DNA of 64,000 bases, taken from contig CP103416.1 in NCBI GenBank assembly GCA_024802545.1, positions 434,001 to 498,000 of the forward strand. The letters run 5' to 3'. The DNA comes from SAR92 clade bacterium H455 (lineage in GTDB: Bacteria > Pseudomonadota > Gammaproteobacteria > Pseudomonadales > Porticoccaceae). The position numbers were made by a program, and so were the translations under genes. Under the pieces are notes generated by a model. It saw only the letters and a list, made by a program, of their open reading frames with translations, was not told where the DNA came from and did no database searches. This document shows, piece by piece, positions 11,946 through 63,476 of this stretch; the first letter of the stretch is position 1, and every line of letters starts with the position of its first letter.

Positions 11946-12788
11946 TTAGGCTGTTTCAGCGAAAAAATTCTCTAATAGCTGACAGAACCGATCAGTGTGC
12001 TCTATTTGAGTCCAATGGCCGCAGCGACCAAATACATGGAGTTGAGCATCGTCTATCCAATTGGCTAGCGTTAAGCTGCTCTGCAATGGAATAACTTCAT
12101 CTTCACGGCCATGTATCACAAGAGCAGGCTGTTTGATTTTTTTGATATCGGCCTCAGCGCTGCTTAGTGCGTCAACCCAGCGCTGTCTTGGCGCCGGAAA
12201 CATTGCCTCAAATGACGCCTGAAAGCCGGGGCGGATACTGGCTTGATAGCGTAGCTGTGCGAGTTCGTCGGTGACCAAACTGCGGTCATAGGTAAACAAA
12301 TCCATCAGTTCTCGCATGGTCTCGAACGATGGCGTATAGCCCCATACACGATCTAATCCCTCGGTAATTGGAAACGCTACACCAGCAGCTCCCATCAACA
12401 CCATTTTTTTCACCCTGGTGGGGTGGCGGATGGTGAAGGCCAATGCGAGAGCACCGCCAAAGCTGTTGCCGACAATGTCGACACTCTCCAGTTCAAGAGC
12501 ATCGATAAAGGCGAGCAAATGTGCGACCCATGCGTCGAGCGAATAGCAGTTACCTTCCGGTCGGTCGGTATAGCCAAAGCCGAGCATGTCGGGGGCGATC
12601 ACCCGTCTTGTTTTGCTTAGCTCAGGAAGCACTAGTCGCCAATTTGCCCAAGCAGTGACACCCGGTCCAGAGCCATGTACTAGGAGCACCGGGTCACCAC
12701 TGCCCATAGAGTGGTAGTTGGTGTTGATACCATTGGCCAGGATAGAGTCGCCGATCTCGGGGTTGCTGGTCTTATGCATTTTCTTCAA
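11946..12788 (-). CDS. dmpD: 2-hydroxymuconic semialdehyde hydrolase
   Basis: 280 residues, alpha/beta hydrolase fold. The triad is visible: S109 in GNSFGG, D230 in HGREDEVIP and H258 in RCGHWTQIE, and the oxyanion region is HGSGPGVTAWANW near residue 38. It hydrolyses ring-cleavage products of the meta pathway; for products from 3-methylcatechol-type substrates this is the only route. It lies 6 bases after dmpC. Together with dmpC it lets the operon handle both semialdehyde and ketone cleavage products. Confidence 0.95.
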   Translation of the reverse strand: MKKMHKTSNPEIGDSILANGINTNYHSMGSGDPVLLVHGSGPGVTAWANWRLVLPELSKTRRVIAPDMLGFGYTDRPEGNCYSLDAWVAHLLAFIDALELESVDIVGNSFGGALALAFTIRHPTRVKKMVLMGAAGVAFPITEGLDRVWGYTPSFETMRELMDLFTYDRSLVTDELAQLRYQASIRPGFQASFEAMFPAPRQRWVDALSSAEADIKKIKQPALVIHGREDEVIPLQSSLTLANWIDDAQLHVFGRCGHWTQIEHTDRFCQLLENFFAETA

Positions 12789-47541: not shown

Positions 47542-48165
47542 TTAAAATGGCAGTGAGTAGGAAGCAACGAAGGTCGGCTCTGCTTCTTCAACATCAGACC
47601 CAAATGGGGTGCTGTAGGTGAAAGACAGAGAGTCGTTGTAGCTGTAAGTCACATCGAAGTTTTCCTGGTTGTTAGCGCCGTTATCGTGAGCACCATACAT
47701 TAGAGAGAACGAACCAACATCGTAGCCGAGGGTGGTGTAAGAATAGTTACTATCGATATCGTCATAGACAGTCAGACTTACTGGGCCGTAGCCTACAGAG
47801 TAAACGTATTCCTGTAATTCAGCCGCTTCATTGTTGATGTCTGCAGAGGGGTAAATGTAGGTAAAGTAGCTGAAGCTATAGTTGAACTCGCCAACTGATC
47901 CGCCGTAACCAGCGAAGAAATCATACTCAGTTCCCATTGCCGCATCGCCTGAAGAAACCCACATGCCAGCGGTGAATCCGGCTTCACTGTAGACGATGTC
48001 GGCAGACAGGGCTGCATCGCCTTGACCGAGGTCATACCCGCGCCACAGGTAAGAAGAAGAAATTGTTGCAGAAGCGGCCACTTCAGCAACGGCTACTGGT
48101 GCAACAGCAAAAGACAGAGTTGATACTGCAGCAGCAGTGATCAGGGTTTTCTTAAACATTTTCAT
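47542..48165 (-). CDS. TorF-family putative porin
   Basis: 207 residues with a signal peptide to about 27 (AVAPVAVAE). The mature protein is full of short aromatic strands with the family start SATISSSYLWRGYDLGQGDA and ends in FVASYSLPF, a barrel-closing phenylalanine. TorF (Gcw_chp) proteins often sit beside ammonium or other nitrogen transport genes. Here the kinase/regulator and urea transporter genes are next, so a role as the outer-membrane pore for urea or amides, like FmdC in Methylophilus, is likely but inferred. Confidence 0.87.
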   Translation of the reverse strand: MKMFKKTLITAAAVSTLSFAVAPVAVAEVAASATISSSYLWRGYDLGQGDAALSADIVYSEAGFTAGMWVSSGDAAMGTEYDFFAGYGGSVGEFNYSFSYFTYIYPSADINNEAAELQEYVYSVGYGPVSLTVYDDIDSNYSYTTLGYDVGSFSLMYGAHDNGANNQENFDVTYSYNDSLSFTYSTPFGSDVEEAEPTFVASYSLPF

Positions 48166-48362
48166 ATGGTTATAAACCTCAAAGTTAAATTTAGACCTTA
48201 AACAAGGCCTGCCCCCAAATTCGGCAAGCTCACTTTATACAACACTCTCAGAGCAAAAAATTGCGCAACAAAGTGATAAGTCCATACTAAATACAATGGG
48301 TTTTATTGATATGCGTGTTAAACCCTAGGGCGCTACGCACAATGACTTATAGAGCGTAGCCA

Positions 48363-49271
48363 TTACTTTAATTGACTCAGATATCTGAGGGAAATAGCCG
48401 CTGCAGTAGTGCGATTTTCAACATTTAGTTTACGGAATATTTGTTCCAAATGTTTGTTCGCAGTGCGCGGACTAAAATCTAAAATGATTGCAATTTCATG
48501 GTTGGTTTTTCCCTTGGTAATCCAGGTTAATACCTCGGCTTCCCGTGCGGTAAGTCCAAACTTCTCTCTGAGTAGTTCCTCATCATTGGGCTTATCAGCT
48601 AGTTCAATCATCAATAGCCTCTCATCGCTATCTTGGGATTCCAGAGCCGTCACTAATAGCGGCTGAGTTAAATCATCTAGGCGCAGAGGTTTTTTGGCAC
48701 CTTCGGCGAGCCATGCCTTTAGTAGTGCTGGCAGCGTATTGGCAATCCAATCTGGAGTGGCACCGCTGCTATTCATCAGGCTGTGAGTGTTGGGTGTGGA
48801 CCAGAGAATCTTGCCCGTTACATCAACTGACAGAGAGTATTGGCCCAGGGTATCCAAAGCCTGGCGCGCACCGTTGGCAATCCGTGAATTGGTCAGTTGG
48901 GCGCCAATTCTGGCCACCAGGCCCTGAACATCTATGGGTTTGGTGACGTAGTCGATACCGCCGGCATCGAAACCCCGGACTATATCTTCACTGGCATTCA
49001 GTCCGGTCATAAAGATCACTGGGATATGGGCGATGAGGGCGTCTCCCTTGATTCGGCGGCAAGCTTCAAAGCCGTCCATTTCTGGCATCATTGCATCCAT
49101 CAAAATAATGTCCGGTTTTATGCGCTTGGCGATGGTCAATGCCTGCTGTCCAGACAGTGCCACCAGTACCGTAAGACCCACCTCAGAGAGGGTGGTGTTG
49201 AGCATACTGATGGTCTCTGGGTTGTCGTCTGCGATCAGCACTACGCCACTACATTTTGAATTAGATTTCAT
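48363..49271 (-). CDS. LuxR-type response regulator
   Basis: 302 residues. The receiver domain (about 8-125) has the phosphoacceptor D59 in ILMDAMMPEMDG. A middle PAS-like segment (about 135-215) leads to a LuxR helix-turn-helix (about 235-298, LTAREAEVLTWITKGKTNHE). The start overlaps the end of the kinase gene by 11 bases, so they form one two-component unit. Its targets probably include the porin and urea genes on either side. Confidence 0.92.
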   Translation of the reverse strand: MKSNSKCSGVVLIADDNPETISMLNTTLSEVGLTVLVALSGQQALTIAKRIKPDIILMDAMMPEMDGFEACRRIKGDALIAHIPVIFMTGLNASEDIVRGFDAGGIDYVTKPIDVQGLVARIGAQLTNSRIANGARQALDTLGQYSLSVDVTGKILWSTPNTHSLMNSSGATPDWIANTLPALLKAWLAEGAKKPLRLDDLTQPLLVTALESQDSDERLLMIELADKPNDEELLREKFGLTAREAEVLTWITKGKTNHEIAIILDFSPRTANKHLEQIFRKLNVENRTTAAAISLRYLSQLK

Positions 49272-52200
49272 TGTTTATCGTCGTCAGTTGGGAGTGGATT
49301 TTGGTCAGGTTTAACTGGGCTAGATTGCGCTGTAAGTCTGCACATAGCCGAGGGTTCAAACGGGCAGCTGTCTCGGCTTTAGTTAGGGCATTTTTGAACC
49401 CGTCGACATAGCCAATATCAATAAAATAGAGCAGCTCTTTGATAATTAAAGGGTCATTTTTTACGCTGCTTTTTATCTCACTGGTCGCGGCTTCCAGAGT
49501 GTTCTCAACGGCGAGTTGCAGAGTAATATTAAGCTGGTCAGCCAATGTGGTTAGTAACGAGGGCATATTGATTGGCTTAACCAGATAGTCATTGTGCAGC
49601 GGTGCATCTTGCTCTTGATTGCCACCACCCAATCCAAGGCCTTCGTCCGCCTCTGCTGAGATCATCACTATGGGCACAGTTAAGCCGCGCTGGCGCAGTT
49701 CCGCAGCTAGTTCCCAACCGGTCATTTTGGGCATAGAAATATCCAGCATAAATAACTTCGGCGTACATTGCTCGAGCATCTGCAGGCAGGAAGCTCCGTC
49801 GGCGGCGGCAATAACATTGAAGCCCAGGGGCGTTAGGGTATCGATTAATAGACGTCGTTGAACCGCGTCGTCATCCACCACCATCAGACTGAGAGTCTCA
49901 CCCTGATAGCCAATCACTCGATCGGCGACGATCGGCTGATGGGTCACCTTGCGACTGCTCGGCAGCATCAGTGAGACGGTAAATATGGAACCTTTGCCAA
50001 ACTCACTTTGAATACTTAAATCACCACCCATACGGTGCACTAGAGCCTGAGTAATGGCTAATCCCAGACCGCTGCCAGCAACCTGATGCATTGGGTTGGC
50101 AATGCGCACAAAGGCCTCGGAGATACGTGAAATGTCCTCTTGTTCGATTCCGACGCCGGTATCAGTGACGCTGAAATAGGCCACCTGATTGCGGTATTTA
50201 AGGTCGACCGAAACCATTCCCTCGGGAGTGAATTTTATCGCATTAGAAATCAGATTGATCATCACCTGACGCAGTCGTTTGCCGTCGGCAATCACAGTCT
50301 CGGGAAGCCTTTCCTGGTGGCTAAAATTAAGACTAATATTTTTAGTCTGAGCCTGTATTTGAAACATATAGATAAGCTGTTCAATCATCGCCAGCATATC
50401 CACTTTGTTTCTGTGTAGTTCGAGCCGCCCAGCCTCAATCTTAGAAATATCCACCAGCCCCTCAATCAGATCGGTGAGATGCTCACTGCTGCTGCGCATC
50501 ACCTTGATCGACTCCCGTCGCGGCGGGGGAATATCGTCAGCGCCCTCAAGCAGTTGGGCATAACCCATAACCGAATTCAGCGGGGTGCGCAGTTCGTGAC
50601 TAATCCTTTCCAGATAGCGGCTCTTGGCAATATTGGCGGCATCGGCTTTTTCTTTCGAGCGCTGTAATTCCAAATCGGTCTTTTGGTGAGCACTAATTTC
50701 ATTGATCAGCAGCTGGGTCTGTCGCTGTGACTCATCCTGTGCCAGTTGACGTCCTTCCATACTCAGTAGATAAGACCAGGTCGCGACCATTAAAACGATG
50801 ATCGAGATCGCTGACAGGGTCCAGGAAAAGGTTTCGATCAGAGCTACTTGATCAGGGTAAAGGCTGATGGTTTTCACCGAAGCCACCATGATCAGAGATA
50901 AGAAAATTCCCAGATTAACGCTGAATAACAGGGTGAATTTAAAGGCTCTGGATTGGATATGGCGCAGCTTTATGGATTTAAGAAACAGCTGTACAAAGGT
51001 TAAAAATTGATTCGAGATTAGACCTTCGGTTCTACAGGCATCATTACAGTGAGCATCGAGTGAACAGCACAGGGAACAGATCGGTAGCTGATAGAGGGGG
51101 CAGTAGGTCATGTCCGGCTTTTCGAAATGATTTTCACAGACGCCACACTGAGCACTGGATATAGGGTTAGAGTGAGAACCAGATAGTTCAGTATCCACCG
51201 GCGCGGAACGGACAATGTAATAGCGTCCCTTGGTAGCCCAAGCGATTAGTGGAGAGATTACAAAGGTCAGAGCCAGGGTGATAAATGACGAGAAAGCTTG
51301 GGCTTCAATACCTAGTGCACCGTTATAGGCGATGATGCCCACAGTCATGGATATCAACATGGCACCCACGCCAACTGGATTGATATCGTAGAGGTGGGCA
51401 CGCTTAAATTCTATATGGGGCGGACTCAGGCCCAGGGGCTTATTGATCAACAGATCCGCGACCATGGAGCCGATCCAGGATAAGGCAATAATGCCAAATA
51501 TGGCCAGGGTTTTTTCCAGGGCGCTATAGATGCCAATCTCCATAAGGATAATTGCCACTACCACATTAAACACCACCCAGACCACACGTCCCGGATGGGC
51601 ATGGGTGAGGCGGGCAAAAAAGTTTGACCAGGCGATGGAGCCAGCATAGACATTGGTGACATTAATTTTTAACTGAGAGAGCACCACGAAGGCTGCGGTG
51701 AGAGCCAGAATAGTAGAGGGCGATTGGCTGACGTAGCTAAAGGCCACCAGATACATCTGGGTCGGCTCGCCGGCTTGCTCGGGGCTGATACCGTAGTTGA
51801 TGGCCAGTACCAATAAAAATGAGCCGAGCAATAATTTAAAGGCGCCAATAATAATCCAACCAGGGCCGGCCAAAATCATTGCCAGCCACCAGGTTTTTTT
51901 ACCAGCTTTATGCGGCGGCGGAATAAAGCGTGCGTAATCCGCCTGTTCACCAATCTGCGCCACCAGAGAAAACAACAGTGTTGAGGCCGCCCCAATCATC
52001 AACCAGTCCATTTCGGTGCCAGCTTGGTTCTGTCCTTTAAACTGCACCCAGCGATCAATGCTGCCCAGATCATTGATCAAAATATAGCCGATGGGTAACA
52101 GCTGAAGCAGCACCCAAAATGGCTGTGTCCAGGCCTGAAAGCGGGTGATCATGGAAATGCCATAGGTGACTACGGGTATCACCAGCAGCGTACTCAGCAG

Positions 52201-52665
52201 ATAGCCCCAGTAAAGTGGCAGTCCAAAGATAAGCTCCAATGCCAGGGCCATAATGCTGGCTTCAAGGGCTAAAAAGATAAAGGTAAAGGAGGCATAGACC
52301 AGCGAGGTAATGGTGGAACCTATATAACCGAAGCCCGCGCCGCGAGTCAGCAGATCGATATCGAGGCCATATTTACTGCTGTAATAACTGATCGGCATTG
52401 AGAGCAGTAATATGATGATACTGACCAGTAAGATTGACGCCACGGCGTTGTGGAAACCGTAGCTCAGAGTGATGGAACCACCAATCGCCTCAAGAGCCAA
52501 AAAGGTAATCGCGCCCAAAGCGGTGCTTGCGACTTTTAAAGCGCTCCAATTTCGTGCGCGGACGCTGGTAAAGCGAAGGGCATAATCTTCCAGAGTTTGA
52601 TCCCCAACCCACTGGTTGTACTTGCGCCGCGCGCCAAAGACGCTTTGCTTTGTTCTAGCAGTCAT
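49261..52665 (-). CDS. NCS1-transporter-fused hybrid sensor histidine kinase
   Basis: 1134 residues. Residues 1-485 are a twelve-helix NCS1 (purine/cytosine/allantoin permease-like) module. Residues 505-545 hold a cluster of eight or more Cys/His that may bind zinc. Two more helices (about 575-635) precede the HisKA domain (H690 in SHELRTPLN), HATPase (about 795-900, DTGVGI, GSGLGLA) and a receiver with D975. The last 80 residues are helical. The transporter part probably senses or carries a nitrogen compound such as urea, allantoin or a purine. A sigma-54 promoter lies upstream. Confidence 0.9.
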   Translation of the reverse strand: MTARTKQSVFGARRKYNQWVGDQTLEDYALRFTSVRARNWSALKVASTALGAITFLALEAIGGSITLSYGFHNAVASILLVSIIILLLSMPISYYSSKYGLDIDLLTRGAGFGYIGSTITSLVYASFTFIFLALEASIMALALELIFGLPLYWGYLLSTLLVIPVVTYGISMITRFQAWTQPFWVLLQLLPIGYILINDLGSIDRWVQFKGQNQAGTEMDWLMIGAASTLLFSLVAQIGEQADYARFIPPPHKAGKKTWWLAMILAGPGWIIIGAFKLLLGSFLLVLAINYGISPEQAGEPTQMYLVAFSYVSQSPSTILALTAAFVVLSQLKINVTNVYAGSIAWSNFFARLTHAHPGRVVWVVFNVVVAIILMEIGIYSALEKTLAIFGIIALSWIGSMVADLLINKPLGLSPPHIEFKRAHLYDINPVGVGAMLISMTVGIIAYNGALGIEAQAFSSFITLALTFVISPLIAWATKGRYYIVRSAPVDTELSGSHSNPISSAQCGVCENHFEKPDMTYCPLYQLPICSLCCSLDAHCNDACRTEGLISNQFLTFVQLFLKSIKLRHIQSRAFKFTLLFSVNLGIFLSLIMVASVKTISLYPDQVALIETFSWTLSAISIIVLMVATWSYLLSMEGRQLAQDESQRQTQLLINEISAHQKTDLELQRSKEKADAANIAKSRYLERISHELRTPLNSVMGYAQLLEGADDIPPPRRESIKVMRSSSEHLTDLIEGLVDISKIEAGRLELHRNKVDMLAMIEQLIYMFQIQAQTKNISLNFSHQERLPETVIADGKRLRQVMINLISNAIKFTPEGMVSVDLKYRNQVAYFSVTDTGVGIEQEDISRISEAFVRIANPMHQVAGSGLGLAITQALVHRMGGDLSIQSEFGKGSIFTVSLMLPSSRKVTHQPIVADRVIGYQGETLSLMVVDDDAVQRRLLIDTLTPLGFNVIAAADGASCLQMLEQCTPKLFMLDISMPKMTGWELAAELRQRGLTVPIVMISAEADEGLGLGGGNQEQDAPLHNDYLVKPINMPSLLTTLADQLNITLQLAVENTLEAATSEIKSSVKNDPLIIKELLYFIDIGYVDGFKNALTKAETAARLNPRLCADLQRNLAQLNLTKIHSQLTTINNEI

Positions 52666-52713
52666 CTGAGCACCTGTGACGAAGAGAGAAAAGAGAGTTG
52701 ATGCTTAGGGCAA

Positions 52714-52729
52714 TGCAATTAGTCTGCCA
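52714..52729 (-). promoter_or_regulatory. Sigma-54 promoter of the kinase/regulator operon
   Basis: On the minus strand TGGCAGACTAATTGCA has GG and GC ten bases apart and closely fits TGGCAC-N5-TTGCA. The start of transcription would be near 52703, 38 bases before the kinase ATG. It suggests NtrC control under nitrogen limitation. Confidence 0.8.
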
Positions 52730-52946
52730 ATGAAATGGCAGTAGGCTAAAACCGTAATCAGCCAAAGCGCTAAATGCATTTATAATACGAAACAGCCAAG
52801 CTCTTTTTGAGCAATCTTTGATCCTCTCAGACAATCCCTCAAACGCCTATGCGCTAAATAACGTATACCTTGGGCTATAAGGCGAATTGTGGGCTTGGCC
52901 TCGACAGCCAATAATCTCAGCGAGTTTAACTTACTGAGGTCTCCCC

Positions 52947-54206
52947 ATGAAAAGCTCCACTACTAACAACATCCCAAGCTGGCGTCGCGCTCTGTTGGTA
53001 TCTGCTGCAGCCTTTGCAGTAGCCCAAGCAGGCTTGACCAATGCAGCATCTGACGAATTTGCCACATCTGTCGTTAACACCACCGGTCTCGCGGTTACCG
53101 ACAACACTGTTACTGTCGGTATCCTTCACTCGATCACCGGCACCATGGCGATCAGTGAGACCGGTTCTACCCAGGCTGAGAAACTGGCCATCAAGCAGAT
53201 CAATGAATCTGGTGGTGTGTTAGGTCGGCAAATTGAATACATTCAGGAAGATGGCGCTAGTGACTGGCCAACCTTTGCTGAAAAATCACGCAAGCTTTTG
53301 GTAAAAGATAAAGTTGCCGCGGTAATGGGGTGCTGGACATCAGCTAGTCGTAAAGCTGCACTGCCAGTCTTTGAACAGTACAACGGTATGCTTTTCTACC
53401 CGACTTTTTATGAAGGGCTTGAGCAGTCTCCAAACGTTGTTTACACCGGTCAAGAAGCCACTCAGCAGATTATTGCGAGTATCGATTGGGTGGTAAAAAC
53501 GAAAGGCGTTAAGACTTTTTACCTCTTAGGTTCTGACTATATCTGGCCGCGTACGTCGATGAAAATCGCCCGTAAGCACATCGCCAAATTGGGTCTTAAA
53601 GTTGTTGGTGAAGAGTACTACCCACTGGGTCACACGCAGTTCAACTCGGTGATCAACAAAGTCAAACTGAAGAAGCCGGACATCATTTTTGCTGCTGTCG
53701 TTGGTGGCTCTAACGTGGCTTTCTACAAACAGGTTAAAGCTGCTGGTATCGATTGGAGAAAAGAGAAGCCTCTTATGCTGACTATCTCTGTTACTGAAGA
53801 CGAAGTCTTGGGTATCGGCGGTGAGAACTTAGTGGGTGCGTACTCTTCTATGAAATACTTCCAGAGCCTGACTAACAGCAATAACGAAACCTTCGTTAAA
53901 GCCTTTAAAGAAATGTGGGGCGAAGACAGTGTTATCGGCGATGTAACTCAAGCAGCTTACTTAGGTCCATGGATCTGGAAGTACGCGGTTGAGAAAGCCG
54001 GGTCTTTCGATATCGACAAACTCAAAGAAGTTCTGCCAGGTATTGAACTGGCTACAGCACCAGAAGGCTACGTCAAAGTTCACGAAAATCAGCACCTTTG
54101 GTCTAAAGCGCGTATCGGTCTTGCCCGTGAAGATGGTCAGTTTGATGTGGTCTTTGAATCAGAAGAGCTTATCGAACCCAACCCATTCCCTAAAGGTTAT
54201 CAGTAA
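52947..54206 (+). CDS. urtA: Urea/short-chain amide ABC transporter, substrate-binding protein
   Basis: 419 residues with a signal peptide to about residue 33; a twin arginine is present (SWRRALLV) but the Tat motif is incomplete. The mature protein is a type I binding fold with the UrtA landmarks GILHSITGTMAISE, GCWTSASRKAALPVFE and LLGSDYIWPRT. It binds urea or amides in the periplasm and feeds UrtBC. A hairpin lies just after its stop, fitting higher expression than the downstream genes. FmdD-type amide specificity cannot be excluded, given fmdAB downstream. Confidence 0.92.
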   Translation: MKSSTTNNIPSWRRALLVSAAAFAVAQAGLTNAASDEFATSVVNTTGLAVTDNTVTVGILHSITGTMAISETGSTQAEKLAIKQINESGGVLGRQIEYIQEDGASDWPTFAEKSRKLLVKDKVAAVMGCWTSASRKAALPVFEQYNGMLFYPTFYEGLEQSPNVVYTGQEATQQIIASIDWVVKTKGVKTFYLLGSDYIWPRTSMKIARKHIAKLGLKVVGEEYYPLGHTQFNSVINKVKLKKPDIIFAAVVGGSNVAFYKQVKAAGIDWRKEKPLMLTISVTEDEVLGIGGENLVGAYSSMKYFQSLTNSNNETFVKAFKEMWGEDSVIGDVTQAAYLGPWIWKYAVEKAGSFDIDKLKEVLPGIELATAPEGYVKVHENQHLWSKARIGLAREDGQFDVVFESEELIEPNPFPKGYQ

Positions 54207-54217
54207 GCGTTAAACCC

Positions 54218-54238
54218 CTGGCGCCCGCATGGCGCCAG
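54218..54238 (+). terminator. Attenuator-like hairpin between urtA and urtB
   Basis: CTGGCGCC (54218-54225) and GGCGCCAG (54231-54238) form a perfect 8-bp stem with a 5-base loop, followed by TATCTTTTT. It could end part of the transcripts or protect the urtA message. Confidence 0.65.
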
Positions 54239-54306
54239 TATCTTTTTGTTTGATGTACATTTTTCACATGCACTTTTTGACAAATATCTTATTCAAGGAA
54301 TTGATC

Positions 54307-55233
54307 ATGTTTGACGGATATTCAGGTTCTGAACTAATGGCAATTTTTGCCATGCAAGGCTTCGCAGGACTTATCTTGTTCTCGGTACTGGTGCTGATGG
54401 CCCTGGGTTTGGCGATTATCTTCGGCCAAATGGGCGTCATTAATATGGCCCACGGCGAGTTTATGATCCTTGGTGCTTATGTCACCTATCTCACCTCATT
54501 ATTTTTTGAAGCTTATCTGCCTGGACTCTCGAGCATCTATTTCTTTGTTGCCATTGTTCTCGCGTTTATAGCGGCGGCCAGTCTTGGCGCCTTTGTCGAA
54601 TGGGCCTTAATACGTCGGCTTTATAAACGTCCTCTGGATACGCTGTTAGCGACCTGGGGTCTAAGCCTAATTCTGCAACAAACCTACCGTTCTGTATTTG
54701 GTGCCCGTGAAAAAGGTGTCTCACTACCGGATTGGATGATGGGTTCTATCCCCGTCACTGATCTCGTGGAGATTCCCATCAACGGTATTATCGTGATGGG
54801 CTTAACCTTGGTTATTACCTTCTCCGTGTACTTTATTATGCAGCGCTCTCAGTGGGGTGCCAAAGTGCGCGCGGTTGTTCAAAACCGCCCCATGGCTGCT
54901 GCTGTAGGTATCAATACCTCGATCGTGGATCGCATGACCTTTGCCTTGGGTTGCGGCATTGCCGGTGTTGCCGGTAGCGCCTTCACTATGATTGGCTCCA
55001 CAGGTCCAACCTCTGGTCAGCTCTATATAGTCGACACCTTTATGGTTGTAGTCTTTGGTGGTGCAGCCAATCTTATGGGCACCATTGCCTCGGCATTTAC
55101 CATCTCTCAGGCACAGACAATTCTTGAATTCTTTATGAGTGGCTCGATTGCCAAGGTACTTACTCTAGGCATGATCGTGGGCATTTTAATGATCCGCCCC
55201 CAGGGTCTGTTCACTCTCAAGATTCGTCGCTAG
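54307..55233 (+). CDS. urtB: Urea ABC transporter permease UrtB
   Basis: 308 residues from the ATG at 54307, with AAGGA 7 bases upstream; the longer frame begins inside the preceding hairpin. About eight membrane segments of the LivH type, with IIFGQMGVINMAHGEFMILG (about 40-60) and a C-terminal GMIVGILMIRPQGLF. Unlike the long UrtB of some bacteria it lacks an extra N-terminal domain. It is the first of the two channel subunits. Confidence 0.92.
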   Translation: MFDGYSGSELMAIFAMQGFAGLILFSVLVLMALGLAIIFGQMGVINMAHGEFMILGAYVTYLTSLFFEAYLPGLSSIYFFVAIVLAFIAAASLGAFVEWALIRRLYKRPLDTLLATWGLSLILQQTYRSVFGAREKGVSLPDWMMGSIPVTDLVEIPINGIIVMGLTLVITFSVYFIMQRSQWGAKVRAVVQNRPMAAAVGINTSIVDRMTFALGCGIAGVAGSAFTMIGSTGPTSGQLYIVDTFMVVVFGGAANLMGTIASAFTISQAQTILEFFMSGSIAKVLTLGMIVGILMIRPQGLFTLKIRR

Positions 55234-55245
55234 GAGATAGATTAA

Positions 55246-56421
55246 ATGTCTAATTATTCAAAGCAGAAATTTTTATCTCCAGCTGAACTGGGTGGCTTTA
55301 TTGTTCTAGCGCTACTATTGTTTGTGGTCTTGCCCCTGTCGGTAGGCGACTTTCGATTGAACCTGATTGGCAAATATCTGAGTTATTCATTCGTCGCCAT
55401 GGGTCTAGTGCTCTGTTGGGGTTACGGCGGTATTTTAAGCCTGGGTCAGGGTGTATTCTTTGGTATCGGCGGCTATTGCATGGCGATGTTTCTCAAGCTT
55501 GAAGCCTCGAGTGTCGCCAACACTTCTATTCAGTCCACTCCCGGTATTCCAGACTTTATGGATTGGAATCAGCTAACTGAACTTCCCTGGTTTTGGGAAC
55601 CGTTCAACAGCTTGGGTCTATCACTGATCGCCGTAGTCTTGGTGCCGGGACTGTTTGCCTTCCTTATTGGCCTGGCCATGTTTAAGCGTCGTGTTGGTGG
55701 TGTTTACTTCGCTATTATTACCCAGGCGGTCGCGGCGATTCTGACCATCTTGATTGTGGGTAGCCAGGGTATGACAGGTGGTATTAACGGTATTACCGAT
55801 CTGCGCACCATGTTGGGCTGGGACATTCGCACCGATGAAGCCAAGGTTATTCTGTACTTTGTCTGCGTCACCTTTGTATTTATCTGTCTCTTTATATGTC
55901 AGTTTGTACTGCGTTCAAAGCTTGGACGACTTTTAGTCGCCGTGCGCGATACGGAAGAACGTGTGCGGTTTTCTGGATACAACGTCGACAACTTTAAAAT
56001 CTTTATCTTCACCCTTGCGGCCATGCTCTCGGCCATAGGGGGTGCACTGTTCACTTTGCAGGTTGGCTTTATGTCACCAAGCTTTGTGGGAATTGTGCCC
56101 TCCATTGAAATGGTGATCTTTTGTGCAGTGGGTGGTCGTCTGTCACTGCTGGGTGCTGTTTACGGTGCGTTGGCGGTGAACTTTGCCAAAACTACTTTAT
56201 CTGAAGCCATCCCCGAACTCTGGTTGTTTGCCCTCGGTGGCATGTTTATCGCCGTTGTCTCGATCTTCCCCAACGGTCTCATGGGGCTCTATAACACTTA
56301 TATAGCAGCACCAGTCAATCGTTGTTATTACGCTGCAGTCGCCTTTATCAATAAGGATAAACCAGCTGAAGATGAAGTGCTGACAATTGAAGAAACTGAC
56401 TCAACCGCAGGAGTTAACTAA
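55246..56421 (+). CDS. urtC: Urea ABC transporter permease UrtC
   Basis: 391 residues of the LivM type with about ten membrane segments. Landmarks are GYGGILSLGQGVFFGIGGYC (about 64-83) and YFAIITQAVAAILT, and a loop EAxxx-type RDTEERVRFSGYN. AGGAGA precedes the ATG. It pairs with UrtB in the membrane, and its stop is 3 bases before urtD. Confidence 0.93.
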   Translation: MSNYSKQKFLSPAELGGFIVLALLLFVVLPLSVGDFRLNLIGKYLSYSFVAMGLVLCWGYGGILSLGQGVFFGIGGYCMAMFLKLEASSVANTSIQSTPGIPDFMDWNQLTELPWFWEPFNSLGLSLIAVVLVPGLFAFLIGLAMFKRRVGGVYFAIITQAVAAILTILIVGSQGMTGGINGITDLRTMLGWDIRTDEAKVILYFVCVTFVFICLFICQFVLRSKLGRLLVAVRDTEERVRFSGYNVDNFKIFIFTLAAMLSAIGGALFTLQVGFMSPSFVGIVPSIEMVIFCAVGGRLSLLGAVYGALAVNFAKTTLSEAIPELWLFALGGMFIAVVSIFPNGLMGLYNTYIAAPVNRCYYAAVAFINKDKPAEDEVLTIEETDSTAGVN

Positions 56422-56424
56422 GCC

Positions 56425-57168
56425 ATGTCTAACAAAGACTTTGTTTTATCGGTTGAAGGATTAACCGTTTCCTTTGATGGTTTTAAGGCGGTTGATGACC
56501 TTTCCTTCTATGTAGAAGAAGGTGAGATCCGCGTCATTATTGGCCCCAATGGTGCCGGTAAAACTACCGTCCTCGATTTGATCTGCGGACGTACCAAGTC
56601 CACCCAAGGGTCGATTAAGTTTCGCGGCAAAGACCTGAGCAAGATGAACGAGCACGAGATTGTTCACGCCGGTGTTGGGCGTAAATTCCAGACTCCTTCA
56701 GTCTATGAAGATCTTACTGTGTTTGAAAACTTCGAACTGTCCTTCCCCCGTGGTCGTTCAGTGTTTGGTGCCCTTGGCTTTAAGCGTGACGCTGAAGTGT
56801 TGAAGGCCATTGAAGAAACCGCAGAAATGGTTTTTCTGCAAGAGTATCTGGGTATGCAGGCGGACCTTCTCAGCCACGGTCAAAAGCAGTGGTTGGAAAT
56901 TGGCATGCTGCTAATTCAGCAGCCGAGTCTGCTGATGCTCGACGAACCAGTAGCCGGTATGTCCGTTGCAGAGCGCAAAAAGACCGCCGAATTGTTGCTC
57001 AAAATTACCAAAGATCGCTCGGTGATTGTCATTGAGCACGACATGAATTTTGTAAAGGATATTGCTGACCGGGTAACTGTTCTGCATCAGGGTAAGGTGT
57101 TGTCTGAAGGCGGCATGGAGCATGTGCAAAACGACCCCAAAGTCATCGAAGTCTATCTCGGCCATTAA
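56425..57168 (+). CDS. urtD: Urea ABC transporter ATP-binding protein UrtD
   Basis: 247 residues, LivG type. Walker A is GPNGAGKTT (about 39-47), the signature region is LSHGQKQWLEIGM and Walker B is LLMLDEPVAGM. The H-loop is VIEHDMNFV. It drives uptake with UrtE. The signature uses LSHGQ in place of LSGGQ, as is usual in UrtD. Confidence 0.94.
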   Translation: MSNKDFVLSVEGLTVSFDGFKAVDDLSFYVEEGEIRVIIGPNGAGKTTVLDLICGRTKSTQGSIKFRGKDLSKMNEHEIVHAGVGRKFQTPSVYEDLTVFENFELSFPRGRSVFGALGFKRDAEVLKAIEETAEMVFLQEYLGMQADLLSHGQKQWLEIGMLLIQQPSLLMLDEPVAGMSVAERKKTAELLLKITKDRSVIVIEHDMNFVKDIADRVTVLHQGKVLSEGGMEHVQNDPKVIEVYLGH

Positions 57169-57180
57169 GGAATTTAGAAC

Positions 57181-57870
57181 ATGTTGAAATTAAAAGACTA
57201 CAACGTTGCTTACGGCCAGAGCCGTGTGATCAACGATATGAATCTAGAGATTGGCGAAGGTGAAATTGTTGCTCTGGTAGGACGCAACGGTATGGGTAAA
57301 ACCACTCTGCTTAAATCCCTTATCGGTATGGTGCCCCATCAGTCCGGCTCAATTATGTTGGGCGGTGAAGAGATTGGTCTCATGGAAAGTCATCAGCGAG
57401 TTGCCAGCGGCATTGGCTTTGTGCCCCAGGGAAGGATGATTTTCTCCACCATGACGGTGACGGAAAATATTATTACTGGACTGACCACCACCGGTGAGAA
57501 AAAAATTCCCGAAGATTTGTATGACCTTTTTCCAGTGCTTAAAGAAATGGGCAAGCGCCGGGGTGGTAACTTGTCCGGCGGCCAGCAGCAACAGTTAGCC
57601 ATTGCCAGAGCCCTGGCCAGTCGGCCTAAGCTGCTGATTTTAGATGAGCCCACCGAGGGTATTCAGCCTTCGATTATTCGCGAAATGGTACATACATTGA
57701 GACGCATTCGGGATGAGCGTGGCCTGTCTATTTTAGTCTCGGAGCAGGTGCTAAGTTTTGCCCTGGATGTCTCTGACCGCGTTATGGTGATTGAAAAGGG
57801 TGACATAGTTCACCAGGAACCCAGTGCCACTGCAGATCAGAAAAAGATCGCAGCCTATTTGTCTGTTTAA
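57181..57870 (+). CDS. urtE: Urea ABC transporter ATP-binding protein UrtE
   Basis: 229 residues, LivF type. Walker A is GRNGMGKTT (about 34-42), the signature is LSGGQQQQLAIARA and Walker B is LLILDEPTEGI, followed by Q-loop-type EGIQPSIIREM. It forms the ATPase pair with UrtD. It is followed after 53 bases by the formamidase gene. Confidence 0.94.
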   Translation: MLKLKDYNVAYGQSRVINDMNLEIGEGEIVALVGRNGMGKTTLLKSLIGMVPHQSGSIMLGGEEIGLMESHQRVASGIGFVPQGRMIFSTMTVTENIITGLTTTGEKKIPEDLYDLFPVLKEMGKRRGGNLSGGQQQQLAIARALASRPKLLILDEPTEGIQPSIIREMVHTLRRIRDERGLSILVSEQVLSFALDVSDRVMVIEKGDIVHQEPSATADQKKIAAYLSV

Positions 57871-57923: not shown

Positions 57924-59159
57924 ATGGCCGAAACCATTATTAAAATTAACCTCAACGAAAGCCCTTACAGCAACGACAAAGTTCACAATCGTTGGCATCC
58001 GGATATTCCAATGGTTGCCAAAGTAAAACCAGGTGATGATTTTAAAATTGAATGTTACGACTGGACCGGTGGTCAGATCAAGAACAATGACTCCGCTGAA
58101 GATGTCCGCGATGTGGATCTGGGTCAGGTCCACTTTCTCTCTGGTCCCATTGAAGTGGAGGGCGCTCAGCCCGGTGATTTGCTTCAGGTAGAAATTCTCG
58201 ACATAGGCACTTTTGAAGAATCTCAGTGGGGCTTTAACGGTTTCTTCAGCAAGAAAAACGGCGGTGGCTTTTTAACTGAACACTTCCCTGATGCGCAGAA
58301 ATCGATCTGGGACTTTAATGGTATGTTCGCTAAATCCCGCCACATACCAGGCGTCGAGTTTGCAGGCTGTCTGCACCCGGGACTCATTGGTTGTCTGCCT
58401 GACAGAGCCTTACTGGATACGTGGAACGAACGTGAAAAAGGTCTAGTTGATACAGATCCTGCTCGTGTTCCAGAGCTGGCTTGCCTGCCCGAAGCTCGCG
58501 TGGCCCATATGGGTCAGATGCAGGGTGCTGCGCGGGATGCCGCTGCTGCTGAAGGCGCACGAACAGTGCCGCCCCGCGAACATGGTGGTAACTGTGATAT
58601 TAAAGATTTGACCCGTGGATCTACGGTTTATTTCCCTGTTTATCAAGATGGTGCTGGCCTCTCTGTAGGTGATTTGCACTTTAGTCAGGGTGACGGCGAA
58701 ATTACTTTCTGTGGCGCTATCGAAATGGCCGGTTGGATTCATATGCGTGTCAATCTGATCAAAGATGGCATGGTTCAGTACGGCGTTAAGAACCCCATCT
58801 TTAAGCCGAGCCCAATGGTTCCCAAGTACGACGACTACCTGATCTTTGAAGGTATCTCGGTAGATGAGAGCGGCGGCCAGCACTATCTGGATGTGCATGT
58901 TGCCTACCGTCAGGCCTGTCTAAATGCGATTAACTATATGACTAAGTTTGGTTACACCCCAGCTCAGGCCTATGCGATTCTTGGCTGTGCGCCAGTGCAG
59001 GGTCATATTAGTGGTGTGGTGGACATTCCCAATGCCTGTGCGACGCTTTGGTTGCCCACGGATATCTTCGACTTCGATATGCAGCCCAACGCCAATGGTC
59101 CGACCATTGCGGTTGATGGTGCGGCTAATGATATTCCTAAAGCGCCGGATGTAGATTAG
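57924..59159 (+). CDS. fmdA: Formamidase (acetamidase/formamidase family)
   Basis: 411 residues, matching the length of FmdA of Methylophilus. It carries WHPDIPMVAKVKPGDDFKIE near the start, GVEFAGCLHPGLIGC around C149/C156, and an acidic GEITFCGAIEMAGW region. It hydrolyses formamide to formate and ammonia and acts on other short amides to a lesser degree. It is in the urt operon, so the importer may carry amides as well as urea. The enzyme is cytoplasmic. Confidence 0.93.
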   Translation: MAETIIKINLNESPYSNDKVHNRWHPDIPMVAKVKPGDDFKIECYDWTGGQIKNNDSAEDVRDVDLGQVHFLSGPIEVEGAQPGDLLQVEILDIGTFEESQWGFNGFFSKKNGGGFLTEHFPDAQKSIWDFNGMFAKSRHIPGVEFAGCLHPGLIGCLPDRALLDTWNEREKGLVDTDPARVPELACLPEARVAHMGQMQGAARDAAAAEGARTVPPREHGGNCDIKDLTRGSTVYFPVYQDGAGLSVGDLHFSQGDGEITFCGAIEMAGWIHMRVNLIKDGMVQYGVKNPIFKPSPMVPKYDDYLIFEGISVDESGGQHYLDVHVAYRQACLNAINYMTKFGYTPAQAYAILGCAPVQGHISGVVDIPNACATLWLPTDIFDFDMQPNANGPTIAVDGAANDIPKAPDVD

Positions 59160-59187: not shown

Positions 59188-59535
59188 ATGCCTCTATATG
59201 ATTACAAATGCCAACAACACGGTGTGTTCTCCGAGCTCACCACCATCGCCAATATGGAATCGCCAGTCGACTGCCCCCAATGTGGGGTGGTCTCGCCGCG
59301 AATATTAGCGTTGCCGCCACATATAGTGTCGATGATGAAAGAGACCAAACAGGCCATGGAGCGCAATGAAAAAGCGCAGCACGAGCCGATTATTTCGACG
59401 TTGGAGAGACGTACAAACGATAAGAAACATGCATCGGACTGCGGTTGCAGTTCAGGCAAGAAATCCAATCTTTTCTATACTGCGGAAGGGAACAAAATGT
59501 TTCCCTCGATGCGGCCTTGGATGATTAGTCACTAG
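59188..59535 (+). CDS. fmdB: FmdB-family zinc-ribbon protein
   Basis: 115 residues. The N-terminal FmdB ribbon is MPLYDYKCQQHG with the second knuckle CPQCG (about 32-36); a later C-rich segment SDCGCSSGK lies near residue 90. FmdB is encoded with formamidase in Methylophilus and is thought to regulate or assist it, although the ribbon is found in many settings. AAGGAG precedes the ATG. It is the last gene of the plus-strand run. Confidence 0.9.
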   Translation: MPLYDYKCQQHGVFSELTTIANMESPVDCPQCGVVSPRILALPPHIVSMMKETKQAMERNEKAQHEPIISTLERRTNDKKHASDCGCSSGKKSNLFYTAEGNKMFPSMRPWMISH

Positions 59536-59620: not shown

Positions 59621-60265
59621 TTAAACCGCCAACATTCCCTTACCCACAATAAAGTCGATAATCACCTGTAGACCCGTGTGCTTGTGTAAGTTGGTAAACA
59701 CATAGGGACTGGTGGGGCGCATACGCTTGGTATCGCTATCCATAATATCTAAATTGGCCCCAACATAGGGCGCTAGATCAATCTTGTTGATCACCAGCAA
59801 ATCCGCCTTAGTAATTCCAGGACCCCCTTTGCGGGGAATCTTTTCCCCCGCCGCAACATCGATCACATAGATAGTCAGATCCGCCAGCTCAGGACTAAAG
59901 GTGGCGCTCAAATTATCGCCGCCACTTTCAATAAAGATTACATCCAAGCCTGCATGACGCTGGCTCATCTCTTCCACTGCTGCGAGATTCATCGACGCAT
60001 CCTCACGAATCGCCGTGTGGGGGCAGCCGCCGGTTTCGACGCCGATAATACGGTCTGCGTCCAAGGCTTTAGCGCGAGTTAAAATAATCGCATCTTCCTG
60101 GGTGTAGATATCATTGGTTACCACTGCCAGATTGTAGGTATCACGCATGGTTTTACACAGCGCTTCCAGCAGAGCAGTTTTGCCTGAACCTACTGGGCCG
60201 CCAACGCCAATTCGAAGGGGGGCGCTACCGCTAGATAAAGAGCTGGGTTTAGATAAGTCAGTCAT
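59621..60265 (-). CDS. ureG: Urease accessory GTPase UreG
   Basis: 214 residues. The P-loop is [13 protein letters not shown] (about 22-34), with the metal motif [20 protein letters not shown] and the GTP-specific NKIDLAP. UreG uses GTP to hand nickel to apo-urease with UreE, UreF and UreD. It is the last gene of the minus-strand urease operon. Confidence 0.97.
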
Positions 60266-60278
60266 GGGTAAGTCCTAA

Positions 60279-60968
60279 TTAAGATCGAAATAGTCGAGTG
60301 TATTGAGTTTCATGACGGCTACTGGCAATCGCCATAGCCGGTGTTGAGCTGCGAATATCTGCGTCATCTGTGCTCATTGCCTGGGTCACTGCGGCGGGAA
60401 TAGTCTGCGCAAGTTCAAGCATAATTTGTTGACCGTGAGTCTGGCCCAAGGGAATCAGCTTCACTCCTGCTACCACATTGTTTTCCAGCCAGCTCCAGCT
60501 GTAGCCGCGACACAGCTGCTGCCTCTCTATGCCCCACTGGCTGGCTGCCAAGGCGATGCCAGTGAGTTGGCAGCTGGATACTGCGGCTGCTAAATGAGAG
60601 GGGATCTGTATACCAAGGCTAGGTAACAGCCGCGCCAGTGCCGCCCCGCGCTGACGCTCTTCCTTACGCAGCTCCATAGTTTCACGACAGGCAATTAGCC
60701 ATTCAGTCCAGTGCACAACACTGGCCTCGTCAGCACTATTAAAAGCCTTTAACAGGCGAATCAAAACTGGCAGCTCAAGGGTCGCAACGCTGGCGGCGAG
60801 AATACTCTGCAGCCAGTCTTGTAAGCTGGGCTTGTCAGTGACCCACCGAGCTTCAATGGCCCACTCCAAACCCTGTGAATAGGTAAAGCCACCTACAGGG
60901 AGAGAGGGGCTAATAAGTTGGAAAAGACGCAGCTCAGAGAGCGAGTTGTCTAATATCTCAGTGGGCAC
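60279..60968 (-). CDS. ureF: Urease accessory protein UreF
   Basis: 229 residues, helical. Landmarks are LISPSLPVGGFTYSQGLEWAIE (about 18-40) and the C-terminal stretch LIPLGQTHGQQIM. It couples UreG activity to the urease-UreD complex. It begins 11 bases after the small membrane-protein gene. Confidence 0.95.
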   Translation of the reverse strand: MPTEILDNSLSELRLFQLISPSLPVGGFTYSQGLEWAIEARWVTDKPSLQDWLQSILAASVATLELPVLIRLLKAFNSADEASVVHWTEWLIACRETMELRKEERQRGAALARLLPSLGIQIPSHLAAAVSSCQLTGIALAASQWGIERQQLCRGYSWSWLENNVVAGVKLIPLGQTHGQQIMLELAQTIPAAVTQAMSTDDADIRSSTPAMAIASSRHETQYTRLFRS

Positions 60969-60979
60969 TTAATGGGGCT

Positions 60980-61207
60980 CTAATCTTCGCTGCTAATTTT
61001 AATCGCGCGGGTTTTTCGACGCTCTAGCAAACGTGATGCGATGGTCGCTAACAGCAGCATGGCAAAGACTACCAAGCCCAAATGATCTGGTGCTGATATA
61101 AGGTGAAAGACTGAGAGTACAGTGCTGTCAGGGCTGTGGGCTTGAGCGGCGGACTGTCCGAATAATAGTGCAGTACCCAGAGTGAGTCGGTTAAAAAAAT
61201 TGGTCAT
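60980..61207 (-). CDS. Mini HupE/UreJ-like membrane protein
   Basis: 75 residues. A signal peptide ends near residue 23 (QSAAQAHS) and one membrane helix follows (about 44-62). The piece FHLISAPDHLGLVVFAMLLL resembles the HPLTGLDHLLAM motif that opens HupE/UreJ nickel permease-like proteins, but those are about 200 residues with six or more helices. It is in the urease operon between ureE and ureF, the usual ureJ position. It may be a reduced UreJ or only a look-alike. Confidence 0.6.
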   Translation of the reverse strand: MTNFFNRLTLGTALLFGQSAAQAHSPDSTVLSVFHLISAPDHLGLVVFAMLLLATIASRLLERRKTRAIKISSED

Positions 61208-61268
61208 TGGAGTTTCCTTAAAATGATAAGCGGGTAATGGTTAGCAGATAATGCGAGGCCTGTAATAA

Positions 61269-61754
61269 TCAGTGATCATGGTGATGACCATGACTGGCAG
61301 GAGCGTTTTTATAGGCACCGGCCTCTGGCTCAAAAGGCACCTCTTCAACGGCAACAGAGAGACCCAGACCAATGACCATATCGTCTAGAACATGGTCGTG
61401 TTGGTAGCGCAAAAACTCAGGCTCAATCTGCAGCGGCACATGGCGGTTGCCCAGGTGATAGCTGGCTCGTGCCAGTGCATGAGGGTTGTCGCTGGTAACG
61501 GTTGAAACAGTTTCCGGCGCTGCATTAATCTTCACCACCAGACCCTCATCGCTCTGGACCAAATCACCGCCCCGCAACACTTCACCGCGGGGTAAGAATA
61601 GCCCGGCCTCGCGACCGTCATCCAGAGTCACCTTGATGCGGCTCTTGGTGCGTTCTCTGATGGGCAGGCTCAGTGTCGTGTCATGAGGTGCCCTTTTATC
61701 AGGAGTTTTGTCATGAGCTGAAGAGTTTTCTAATATGCTAGTAATGCGAATCAT
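61269..61754 (-). CDS. ureE: Urease nickel metallochaperone UreE
   Basis: 161 residues from the ATG at 61754. The first half is the peptide-binding-like domain (REGLPxxRE-type [15 protein letters not shown]), the second holds the nickel-site region [18 protein letters not shown]. The tail ends HGHHHDH, a histidine-rich nickel store. A short disordered insert near residues 10-25 is rich in charged residues. It delivers nickel to UreG. Confidence 0.94.
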
Positions 61755-61769
61755 CAAATAGGCCTGTAG

Positions 61770-63476
61770 TTAAAACAGAAAATAACGCTGCGCCATAGGC
61801 AGCTCAGCGGCCGGCTCGCAGACCAATAACTGGCCGTCGGCACGTACCTCATAGGTCTGTGAATCCACTTCTATTTTCGGTTGATAGCTATTCAGCAACA
61901 TGTCATTTTTGGTGACATTGCGGCAGTTTTTCACCGAGCCAATCAAACTGCGTAAACCCAGCTGTTCGGGAATGCCGCCACTCACTGCGGCACCGGAGAG
62001 AAACAGCATAGAGGTGTTGTTACTGGCCCGGCCCATGGAACCAAACATGGATCTGTAGTGCACCGGCTGGGGTGTGGGAATCGAAGCATTGGGGTCACCC
62101 ATAGGTGCCGCCGCGATCATGCCGCCTTTAATAATAATCGCTGGCTTAGTGCCGAAAAAAGCCGGTTTCCAAAGTACTAAATCCGCCAGCTTGCCGGTAT
62201 CAATGGAGCCCACCTCATGGGAAATGCCGTGAGCGATGGCCGGGTTTATGGTGTATTTGGCGATATAGCGTTTAATACGATTATTGTCATTGGCACTGCT
62301 ATCTTGAGCCAATGGACCGCGCTGAACTTTCATCTTGTGGGCGGTCTGCCAGGTTCTGATAATCACTTCACCGACTCGGCCCATAGCCTGAGAGTCTGAG
62401 GCAATCATGGAAAAGGCACCCAAGTCATGGAGTATATCTTCGGCGGCAATGGTCTCTCGGCGAATGCGCGATTCGGCAAAGGCCACATCTTCGGCAATGT
62501 TGGGATCCAGGTGATGACAGACCATCAACATATCTAAATGCTCGTCCACAGTATTGATGGTGTAGGGCCTTGTTGGATTAGTTGAGGAGGGCAGAATGTT
62601 CAGCTCACCACAGGCTCTAATAATATCCGGGGCATGACCGCCGCCGGCCCCTTCGGTGTGATAGGTGTGGATGGTGCGACCGTTGATGGCCGCTAATGTA
62701 GCTTCGACAAAACCGGACTCATTGAGGGTGTCAGTGTGAATCGCCACCTGTACATCGGTCTCGTCGGCAACATTTAAACATTCGTTAATTGAGGCCGGGG
62801 TAGTGCCCCAGTCTTCGTGTAGTTTTAAGCCCATCACGCCCGCTTCAATCTGTTCTCTTATAGGTTCCGCCTGGCTCGCATTGCCCTTGCCCATGAGGCC
62901 AATATTCATTGGCGCTGTGTCTGCAGCTTCGAGCATACGGTGGATATTCCAGGGTCCCGGGGTGCAGGTTGTAGCATTGGTGCCAGTGGCTGGACCGGTG
63001 CCGCCGCCGAGCATGGTGGTGACACCGGACATCAGTGCCTCGTCAATTTGCTGGGGGCAGATAAAATGAATGTGGGAATCGACACCACCGGCGGTGAGGA
63101 TATGGCCTTCACCGGCGAGCACTTCAGTGCCCGCCCCAATAATAATATCGACGCCGCTCTGGGTGTCGGGGTTGCCGGCTTTCCCTATAGCCGCAATGCG
63201 TCCTTTTTTAATCCCCACATCGGCTTTAACTATGCCCCAGTGATCGATGATTAGCGCATTGGTAATCACTAGGTCGACAGTCTCTGCACTGGGTCGCTGG
63301 CTCTGGCCCATGCCGTCGCGAATCACTTTGCCGCCGCCAAATTTAACTTCGTCGCCATAGAGGGTGAAGTCTTTTTCTACCTCTAACCAGAGCTCGGTAT
63401 CCGCCAGGCGAACTTTGTCTCCGGTGGTGGGGCCGAACATTTCGGCATAGGCCTGTCTTGAAATGGATCTTGGCAT
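61770..63476 (-). CDS. ureC: Urease alpha subunit
   Basis: 568 residues. The nickel-site residues lie one position after the Klebsiella numbering: H135 and H137 (SHIHF), carbamylated K218 (GLKLHED), H247, H273 and D361, with flap residues C320 and H321. All are present, so the enzyme should be active. It hydrolyses urea to ammonia and carbamate. It follows ureB by 22 bases. Confidence 0.98.

Follow-up and report, generated by a model that had tools for sequence, protein, structure and literature searches.

The locus described here lies in a 64,000-nucleotide stretch of the genome of SAR92 clade bacterium H455 (contig CP103416.1, positions 434,001 to 498,000; hereafter the window) and centres on a hybrid histidine kinase whose N-terminal part is a whole transporter module of the NCS1 family. 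We consider it probable that this kinase is a transceptor for urea and short-chain amides that controls an fmd/urt regulon; its NCS1-type permease would either have become a receptor or act as one besides transporting, the ligands being urea and short-chain amides such as formamide and acetamide. The kinase gene is divergent from a urtABCDE-fmdA-FmdB-like cluster, with urease genes beyond it on the opposite strand. Hundreds of bacteria encode such a sensor and a DNA-binding partner beside genes for the uptake and breakdown of urea and small amides, which the pair probably switches on.

The architecture of the kinase is firm. HisKA, ATPase and receiver domains, with phospho-acceptor residues H690 and D975, identify a hybrid HisKA two-component kinase, and the NCS1 module, an eight-Cys cluster and two additional transmembrane (TM) helices precede them (Table 1). 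A preliminary description had read the protein as an NCS1 permease of about 485 residues followed by kinase and receiver, and this layout is confirmed by fold, by bridging homology and by Pfam. There is no significant Pfam match to residues 480-620, where Pfam itself may hold no STAC model, or to the roughly 90 residues that follow the receiver (window 49264-49545).

Pfam, NCBIfam and PDB sequence searches with the kinase N-terminus returned no NCS1 match; the Pfam NCS1 model, PF02133, has no direct match to the window module at E values up to 10 and matches 0 of the 55 members of the fused-module family. An AlphaFold model of residues 1-655 (predicted local distance difference test score, pLDDT, 84.4) was compared with known structures. 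CodB and Mhp1 occupied Foldseek ranks 1-5, and VIA-align superimposed the module on CodB with a Z score of 33.6 (396 aligned, 3.2 Å) and on Mhp1 (4d1a) with 29.6. The first non-NCS1 structure dropped to Z 23.6, SLC5 structures ranked far under NCS1 (e.g. 5nva, Z 20.8), and no SLC5 Pfam match was found anywhere in the full-length kinase. Relatives that lack a kinase supply a sequence bridge. A Klebsiella pneumoniae permease passes the PF02133 cut-off of 23.5 bits with 37.7 and matches the window module at 41% identity across 520 aligned positions (E 4e-127); another kinase-free relative scores 31.8 bits. The sensor module is NCS1 by fold and by homology through close relatives. Because of the structure and the kinase-free bridging sequences, the earlier NCS1 call is correct although Pfam is silent, and we call the module NCS1-derived since the missing PF02133 match is a limit of that model and not a defining trait.

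The preliminary description had suggested a search for relatives of this architecture and their neighbors. A scan of species genomes gave at least 595 confirmed stretches, and urt and fmd genes recur in the best 80, which form the census used throughout. Strong matches to the module profile (E 1e-200 or better) are present in 16 of 369 genomes of the class and 52 of 398 of the phylum, own genome included, with 25 and 62, respectively, matching at all; genomes with weak matches only (8 of the 25, 10 of the 62) and the kinase-free match of genome G333 are left out of the strong counts. The 80 loci carry 27 family labels, mostly from Gamma-, Alpha- and Betaproteobacteria, with one cyanobacterium. 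UrtA is encoded near the kinase in 71 of them and in 40 of 44 genus labels, and a response-regulator gene is present in 72 (six of the eight loci lacking one end at a contig edge). Where at least 8 kb of upstream sequence is available (65 loci), UrtA occurs in 61 (57 of the window type, 4 canonical), FmdA in 54 and FmdB in 53. The conserved neighborhood is therefore firm, and these UrtA and formamidase counts uphold the link to urea and amide uptake that had been proposed from the window. No partner is conserved as strongly as the fmd-type cluster (urtABCDE-formamidase-FmdB), and short-chain amides are therefore as likely a signal as urea. In the cyanobacterium, Phormidium (L147:9980-12946), the NCS1-Cys module is joined to a different kinase (H-box GIAHEINNPIN) and no amide genes are near. 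Shorter fusions of about 890 aa, in L175 (genome G600) and L174 (G499), stand beside other receiver-containing regulator genes; L175 has a formamidase nearby.

Relatives without a kinase bear on the nature of the ligand. We inspected all ten short-frame relatives found in the order of G333, plus L165 and L197 from elsewhere. In a first type (8/8) the permease gene stands behind ureG of a ureDABCEFG operon, and in six cases a NicO-type gene comes after it; the L238 permease is spread over two frames. Those of a second type (4/4) are divergent from an NCS1-kinase and lead fmdA, fmdB and an AmiE-like amidase gene, with a palindrome, described below, in between. At these loci an NCS1 permease thus stands in for the missing ABC transporter, and its predicted control is the same. 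In L163, a more distant NCS1 gene is located beside genes read by eye as a carbon-nitrogen hydrolase and AmiC/AmiR-like proteins. These arrangements also bear on the idea that the module is a stator or docking unit reading the traffic of the Urt transporter, or its binding protein, and not a solute. Some kinases do read out a partner transporter, and the genomic pairing of this kinase with UrtABCDE is tight, but the pairing persists where a kinase-free permease takes the place of the ABC transporter (4/4) and also beside a different, canonical Urt, and we regard the idea as very unlikely.

In K. pneumoniae, the gene after ureG (L197:7941-9548, plus strand) is annotated as a cytosine permease; its closest kin are the urease-linked permeases and the sensor module, and its product is probably a urea permease. 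An IS4321-type transposase gene either interrupts or follows the ureC of the plasmid-borne urease operon there (L197:2969-5733). In a phylogenetic tree the kinase-free proteins are nested among kinases, with a Shimodaira-Hasegawa-like approximate likelihood ratio (SH-aLRT) support of 94 for their group with L147 and L175. Since the outgroup branches are very long and the ingroup root is unplaced, the tree does not show which form came first.

In order to compare the binding pocket with that of Mhp1, we built a residue map from a family alignment of 55 fused members, to which Mhp1 was aligned by sequence. Mhp1 Q121 corresponds to E135, N318 to N338 and W220 to L234, each in 55 of 55 members, and the position of Trp117 is Phe. 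The Ser312/Thr313 pair is replaced, with K333 of TM8 at the equivalent of Ser312, which we take to be part of the sodium site. Gln121 and Asn318 of Mhp1 bind the ureide group of hydantoin (PMC4195764). The amide-recognising polar pair thus appears to be kept in kind and ring packing to be partly lost with Trp220, which would fit urea or formamide. E59 of TM1 is Glu in all 55 sensors, and among three kinase-free transporters compared it is Gln in one and Phe in two; it is a candidate sensor-specific residue.

Urea together with short-chain amides is the probable ligand class. The preliminary description had named urea, allantoin or a purine, sensed by flux: urea stands, and allantoin or purines are less likely given the UrtA and formamidase counts and the operon context of the kinase-free relatives. 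Binding of a solute without transport is just as possible as sensing by flux. The same regulon could also be served by a module whose ligand is a nucleobase or cyclic ureide (allantoin, uracil, hydantoin), an upstream source of urea, which is a product of purine breakdown; the fold is nearest to CodB and Mhp1, and other NCS1 proteins bind such ligands. We judge this unlikely, since no purine or pyrimidine catabolic gene recurs beside the kinase in the loci read, the kinase-free relatives are linked to urease and formamidase or amidase, and Leu invariably replaces Trp220.

Between the module and the kinase core, the pattern CX2CX11CX7CX2CCX5CX3C at residues 507-544 is present in 80 of 80 relatives. 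Of the "Cys/His-rich knot" described earlier the Cys part holds, and His is not a conserved component. The cluster is possibly a two-zinc finger. When it was modelled alone (pLDDT 73), comparison with FYVE/RING/PHD-like folds gave weak matches (best Foldseek E 0.4, Z 3.7), and no fold is claimed. Such invariance of eight cysteines is what a zinc or redox sensor with the permease part as a mere anchor might display; however, the pocket residues are likewise invariant (55/55), the predicted regulon consists of amide and urea genes and not of metal or redox genes, and the kinase-free transporters carry a full or partial cluster. This makes a metal or redox sensor extremely doubtful.

Conservation of the intergenic DNA connects the proposed urea and amide sensor with its predicted target genes. 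The regions between kinase and urtA share a 20-bp palindrome with the position weight matrix (PWM) consensus tATACGTCAATTGACGTATa. Dyad analysis of 42 non-redundant regions found GACGTA in 31 (p 7e-28; the best of three shuffled sets reached 7e-5), and the PWM gives at least 10 bits in 35 of 49 divergent regions, training rows included. Among the 48 loci outside the training set, which take in two kinase-free ones (L031, L042), 23 have an upstream site of at least 14 bits, as against 4 of 960 shuffles; L048-L057 are without one. The coding sequences of the kinases at these loci (131 kb) and 37 loci that lack the kinase (162 kb) contain no site of at least 14 bits. At a threshold of 16 bits, the 80 loci contain 70 sites, 57 of them before UrtA, kinase or porin genes; fmdA starts account for 12 of the 13 that remain. 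The palindrome also precedes canonical urtA in L012, L114 and L151, where kinase and urt are not arranged divergently, and the counterpart of the window porin gene in L009 (14.4 bits) and L012 (19.3 bits); Bradyrhizobium loci of the census have a variant, TACGCAAGATYGCGTA, near the kinase start. The location of the palindrome tracks the amide and urea genes rather than the kinase. The LuxR-type regulator encoded next to the kinase probably uses the palindrome as its operator, and the assignment of the predicted regulon is strong.

Two operator-like sites at the window porin, 48332-48351 (8.3 bits) and 48362-48381 (11.5 bits), do not stand out from others in the window (12.5 bits at 25625, 10.3 at 12202) and were rejected as clear operators; we mention them because same-genus relatives have stronger ones. 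A genome-wide operator scan allowing 3 mismatches was uninformative (1156 matches versus 2169 for the reversed control).

The kinase gene itself may be under sigma-54 control. A sigma-54-like promoter had been reported 49 bases upstream of the kinase start; it is found at that distance and recurs, directed at the kinase, in relatives. The scan used weights from the general sigma-54 consensus; the site has the GG-N10-GC core and recurs at the same gene in relatives. The 64-kb window holds 7 matches versus 3.9 expected, and a single match is therefore not rare. Kinase-directed sites scoring at least 11.5 are present in 15 of 42 non-redundant intergenic regions, compared with 1.1 expected, and sites directed at urtA occur in one of the 42; an earlier test with base shuffles gave 24/49 versus 5/49. 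RpoN and NtrC are encoded in the genome.

The proposed sequence of events is as follows. Under nitrogen limitation the sigma-54 promoter, probably driven by NtrC, would raise the kinase and the co-encoded LuxR-type regulator. A ligand in the NCS1 site would cause a conformational change that passes through the eight-Cys cluster, the two TM helices and the coiled coil to the HisKA/ATPase core at H690. From there the signal would reach D59 of the regulator, with the attached receiver (D975) tuning or relaying it. Once phosphorylated, the regulator may bind the palindrome and activate urtABCDE-fmdA-fmdB; where other genomes have separate promoters for fmdA, canonical urt or porin genes, it may act on those as well. 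Ligand binding, transport and phosphotransfer by the kinase are what we infer from its domains and neighbors. A bolder proposal, which we offer tentatively as a possibility, is that of a first NCS1 receptor family: a non-pumping or slow-pumping urea/formamide receptor with a fixed sodium-site lysine, whose kinase-free kin, the Klebsiella "cytosine permease" included, would be a new class of urea/amide permeases and may have arisen from the sensor when its kinase part was lost.

Several observations weigh against the proposed role of the kinase. No operator was found in the urease-linked kinase-free relatives (0/8) or before the urease genes in the window, and a scan for NtrC sites was at chance level, with none near the kinase. 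UrtA is not close in L083, L102, L122, L128, L139 and L147; for L083 and L128 a contig edge lies near the start, and the other four are the loci without UrtA among the 65, L102 having urease and other urt genes further off. The 80 loci are the closest of at least 595, and the census therefore leans to near relatives. The Mhp1 residue map is built on a sequence alignment of about 15% identity, and the kinase-free relatives carry the same site residues, E59 excepted; these residues therefore do not tell a sensor from a transporter.

The module is also carried on plasmids. Relatives are found on 534 of 72,556 plasmid records, 342 of them from Klebsiella. Of a 10.4-kb Klebsiella module, 341 enterobacterial plasmid records cover 80% or more; identity is 99% or higher in 372 of the 375 records that match, and most of the module is present in 4 of 5,426 E. 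coli genomes. The palindrome in the plasmid module scores 24.0 bits, and the kinase is mostly annotated as "ATP-binding protein" among the rows listed.

Table 1. Coordinates of the kinase locus within the window.
Feature	Position	Strand	Basis or remarks
NCS1-fused hybrid histidine kinase	49261..52665	-	1134 aa, ATG start; H690, receiver D975
NCS1-fold module	51205..52590	-	residues about 26-487; VIA-align to CodB/Mhp1 and bridging relatives reaching PF02133
Eight-Cys cluster	51034..51147	-	residues 507-544; pattern kept in relatives
Two extra TM helices and coiled-coil start	50752..50949	-	residues about 573-638; hydropathy, model
HisKA	50428..50625	-	residues 681-746; Pfam
HATPase_c	49963..50286	-	residues 794-901; Pfam
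Kinase receiver domain	49546..49884	-	residues 928-1040; Pfam
Response regulator, receiver and LuxR-type DNA-binding domain	48363..49271	-	302 aa; start overlaps kinase stop
TorF-family putative porin, behind response regulator	47542..48165	-	family model
Sigma-54-like promoter TGGCAG-N5-TTGCA, TGGCAGACTAATTGCA	52714..52729	-	directed at kinase; 3' end 49 bp from ATG
Predicted response-regulator operator, 20-bp imperfect palindrome TATGCGCTAAATAACGTATA	52848..52867	.	20.8 bits by PWM; centre about 89 bp before urtA ATG
urtA (fmd-type) substrate-binding protein	52947..54206	+	TIGR03407, 538 bits
urtB, urtC, urtD, urtE	54229..57870	+	UrtB by family model; others by reading, gene order, likeness to annotated clusters
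fmdA formamidase	57924..59159	+	NF045496, 757.8 bits
FmdB-like small zinc-ribbon protein	59188..59535	+	115-aa open reading frame (ORF); relatives in 53/65 loci
Urease genes ureG, ureF, ureE, ureC (part of operon)	59621..63476	-	ORFs read by eye; UreG, UreC used as queries

The gene content of an fmd operon is found in the window: a UrtA-like binding protein, permeases, ATPases, FmdA and a zinc-ribbon protein that we take to be FmdB, with UrtC-E and FmdB assigned by reading and position. Elsewhere in the window, genes named by eye include an aromatic (phenol-type) monooxygenase and meta-cleavage genes (5800-29900) and a sigma-54 activator of the XylR/DmpR kind (28182-29867).

In the literature searched, which includes few subscription papers, we recognised nothing on an NCS1-kinase fusion or its operator. 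The sensor through which urea or formamide induces fmd/urt genes is unnamed in the literature covered; a candidate sensor, regulator, operator and predicted regulon are now proposed. The fmdCABDEF genes of Methylophilus methylotrophus are induced by formamide and urea and repressed by ammonia (PMC10781810). They comprise the same target genes (formamidase, FmdB, porin and amide/urea ABC transporter), and in the available text their sensor is described only as a putative positive regulator. A 2010 study inferred an amide substrate for a Bradyrhizobium urt-like cluster beside FmdA and AmiE (PMC3098086), and a 2026 genome paper places urtABCDE next to a histidine kinase and a LuxR regulator, with no name given to the permease part in the portion available (PMC13296017). 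The UTS urea transporter cluster of K. pneumoniae CG307 combines UrtABC with a formamidase (PMC13060141); the Klebsiella plasmid module is like it in gene content, and the kinase is unmentioned in the available part of that paper. Work on this plasmid urea-uptake cluster would gain from knowing its regulator.

Among characterised systems, AmiC/AmiR likewise places amidase genes under control of short-chain amides, but through a binding protein and an antiterminator, with no kinase (PMC13209695). Mhp1 and CodB share the fold of the sensor module, lack a kinase and bind hydantoins and cytosine; Trp220 and Ser312/Thr313 are replaced in the window module. The SLC5-STAC kinases of CbrA/CbrB, CrbS/CrbR and RpuS/RpuR likewise carry a LeuT-fold transporter on a histidine kinase and are tied to nutrient uptake, as far as the available sources go for CrbS and RpuS. 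Unlike them, the window kinase has an NCS1 module, a LuxR-type regulator and a urea/amide regulon, and an eight-Cys cluster with two TM helices stands where CbrA has its STAC domain. A lysine is reported in the sodium (Na2) site of CbrA (PMC13022988), to be compared with K333 here at the Mhp1 Ser312 equivalent. In Ks-Amt5, too, a nutrient transporter has been made a receptor for a nitrogen signal by kinase fusion (PMC5764959), but it has the trimeric Amt fold, ammonium as its ligand and another transporter family. NCS1 thus joins the few kinase-fused transporter families (SLC5, Amt), and the rules by which a transporter becomes a receptor can therefore be compared.

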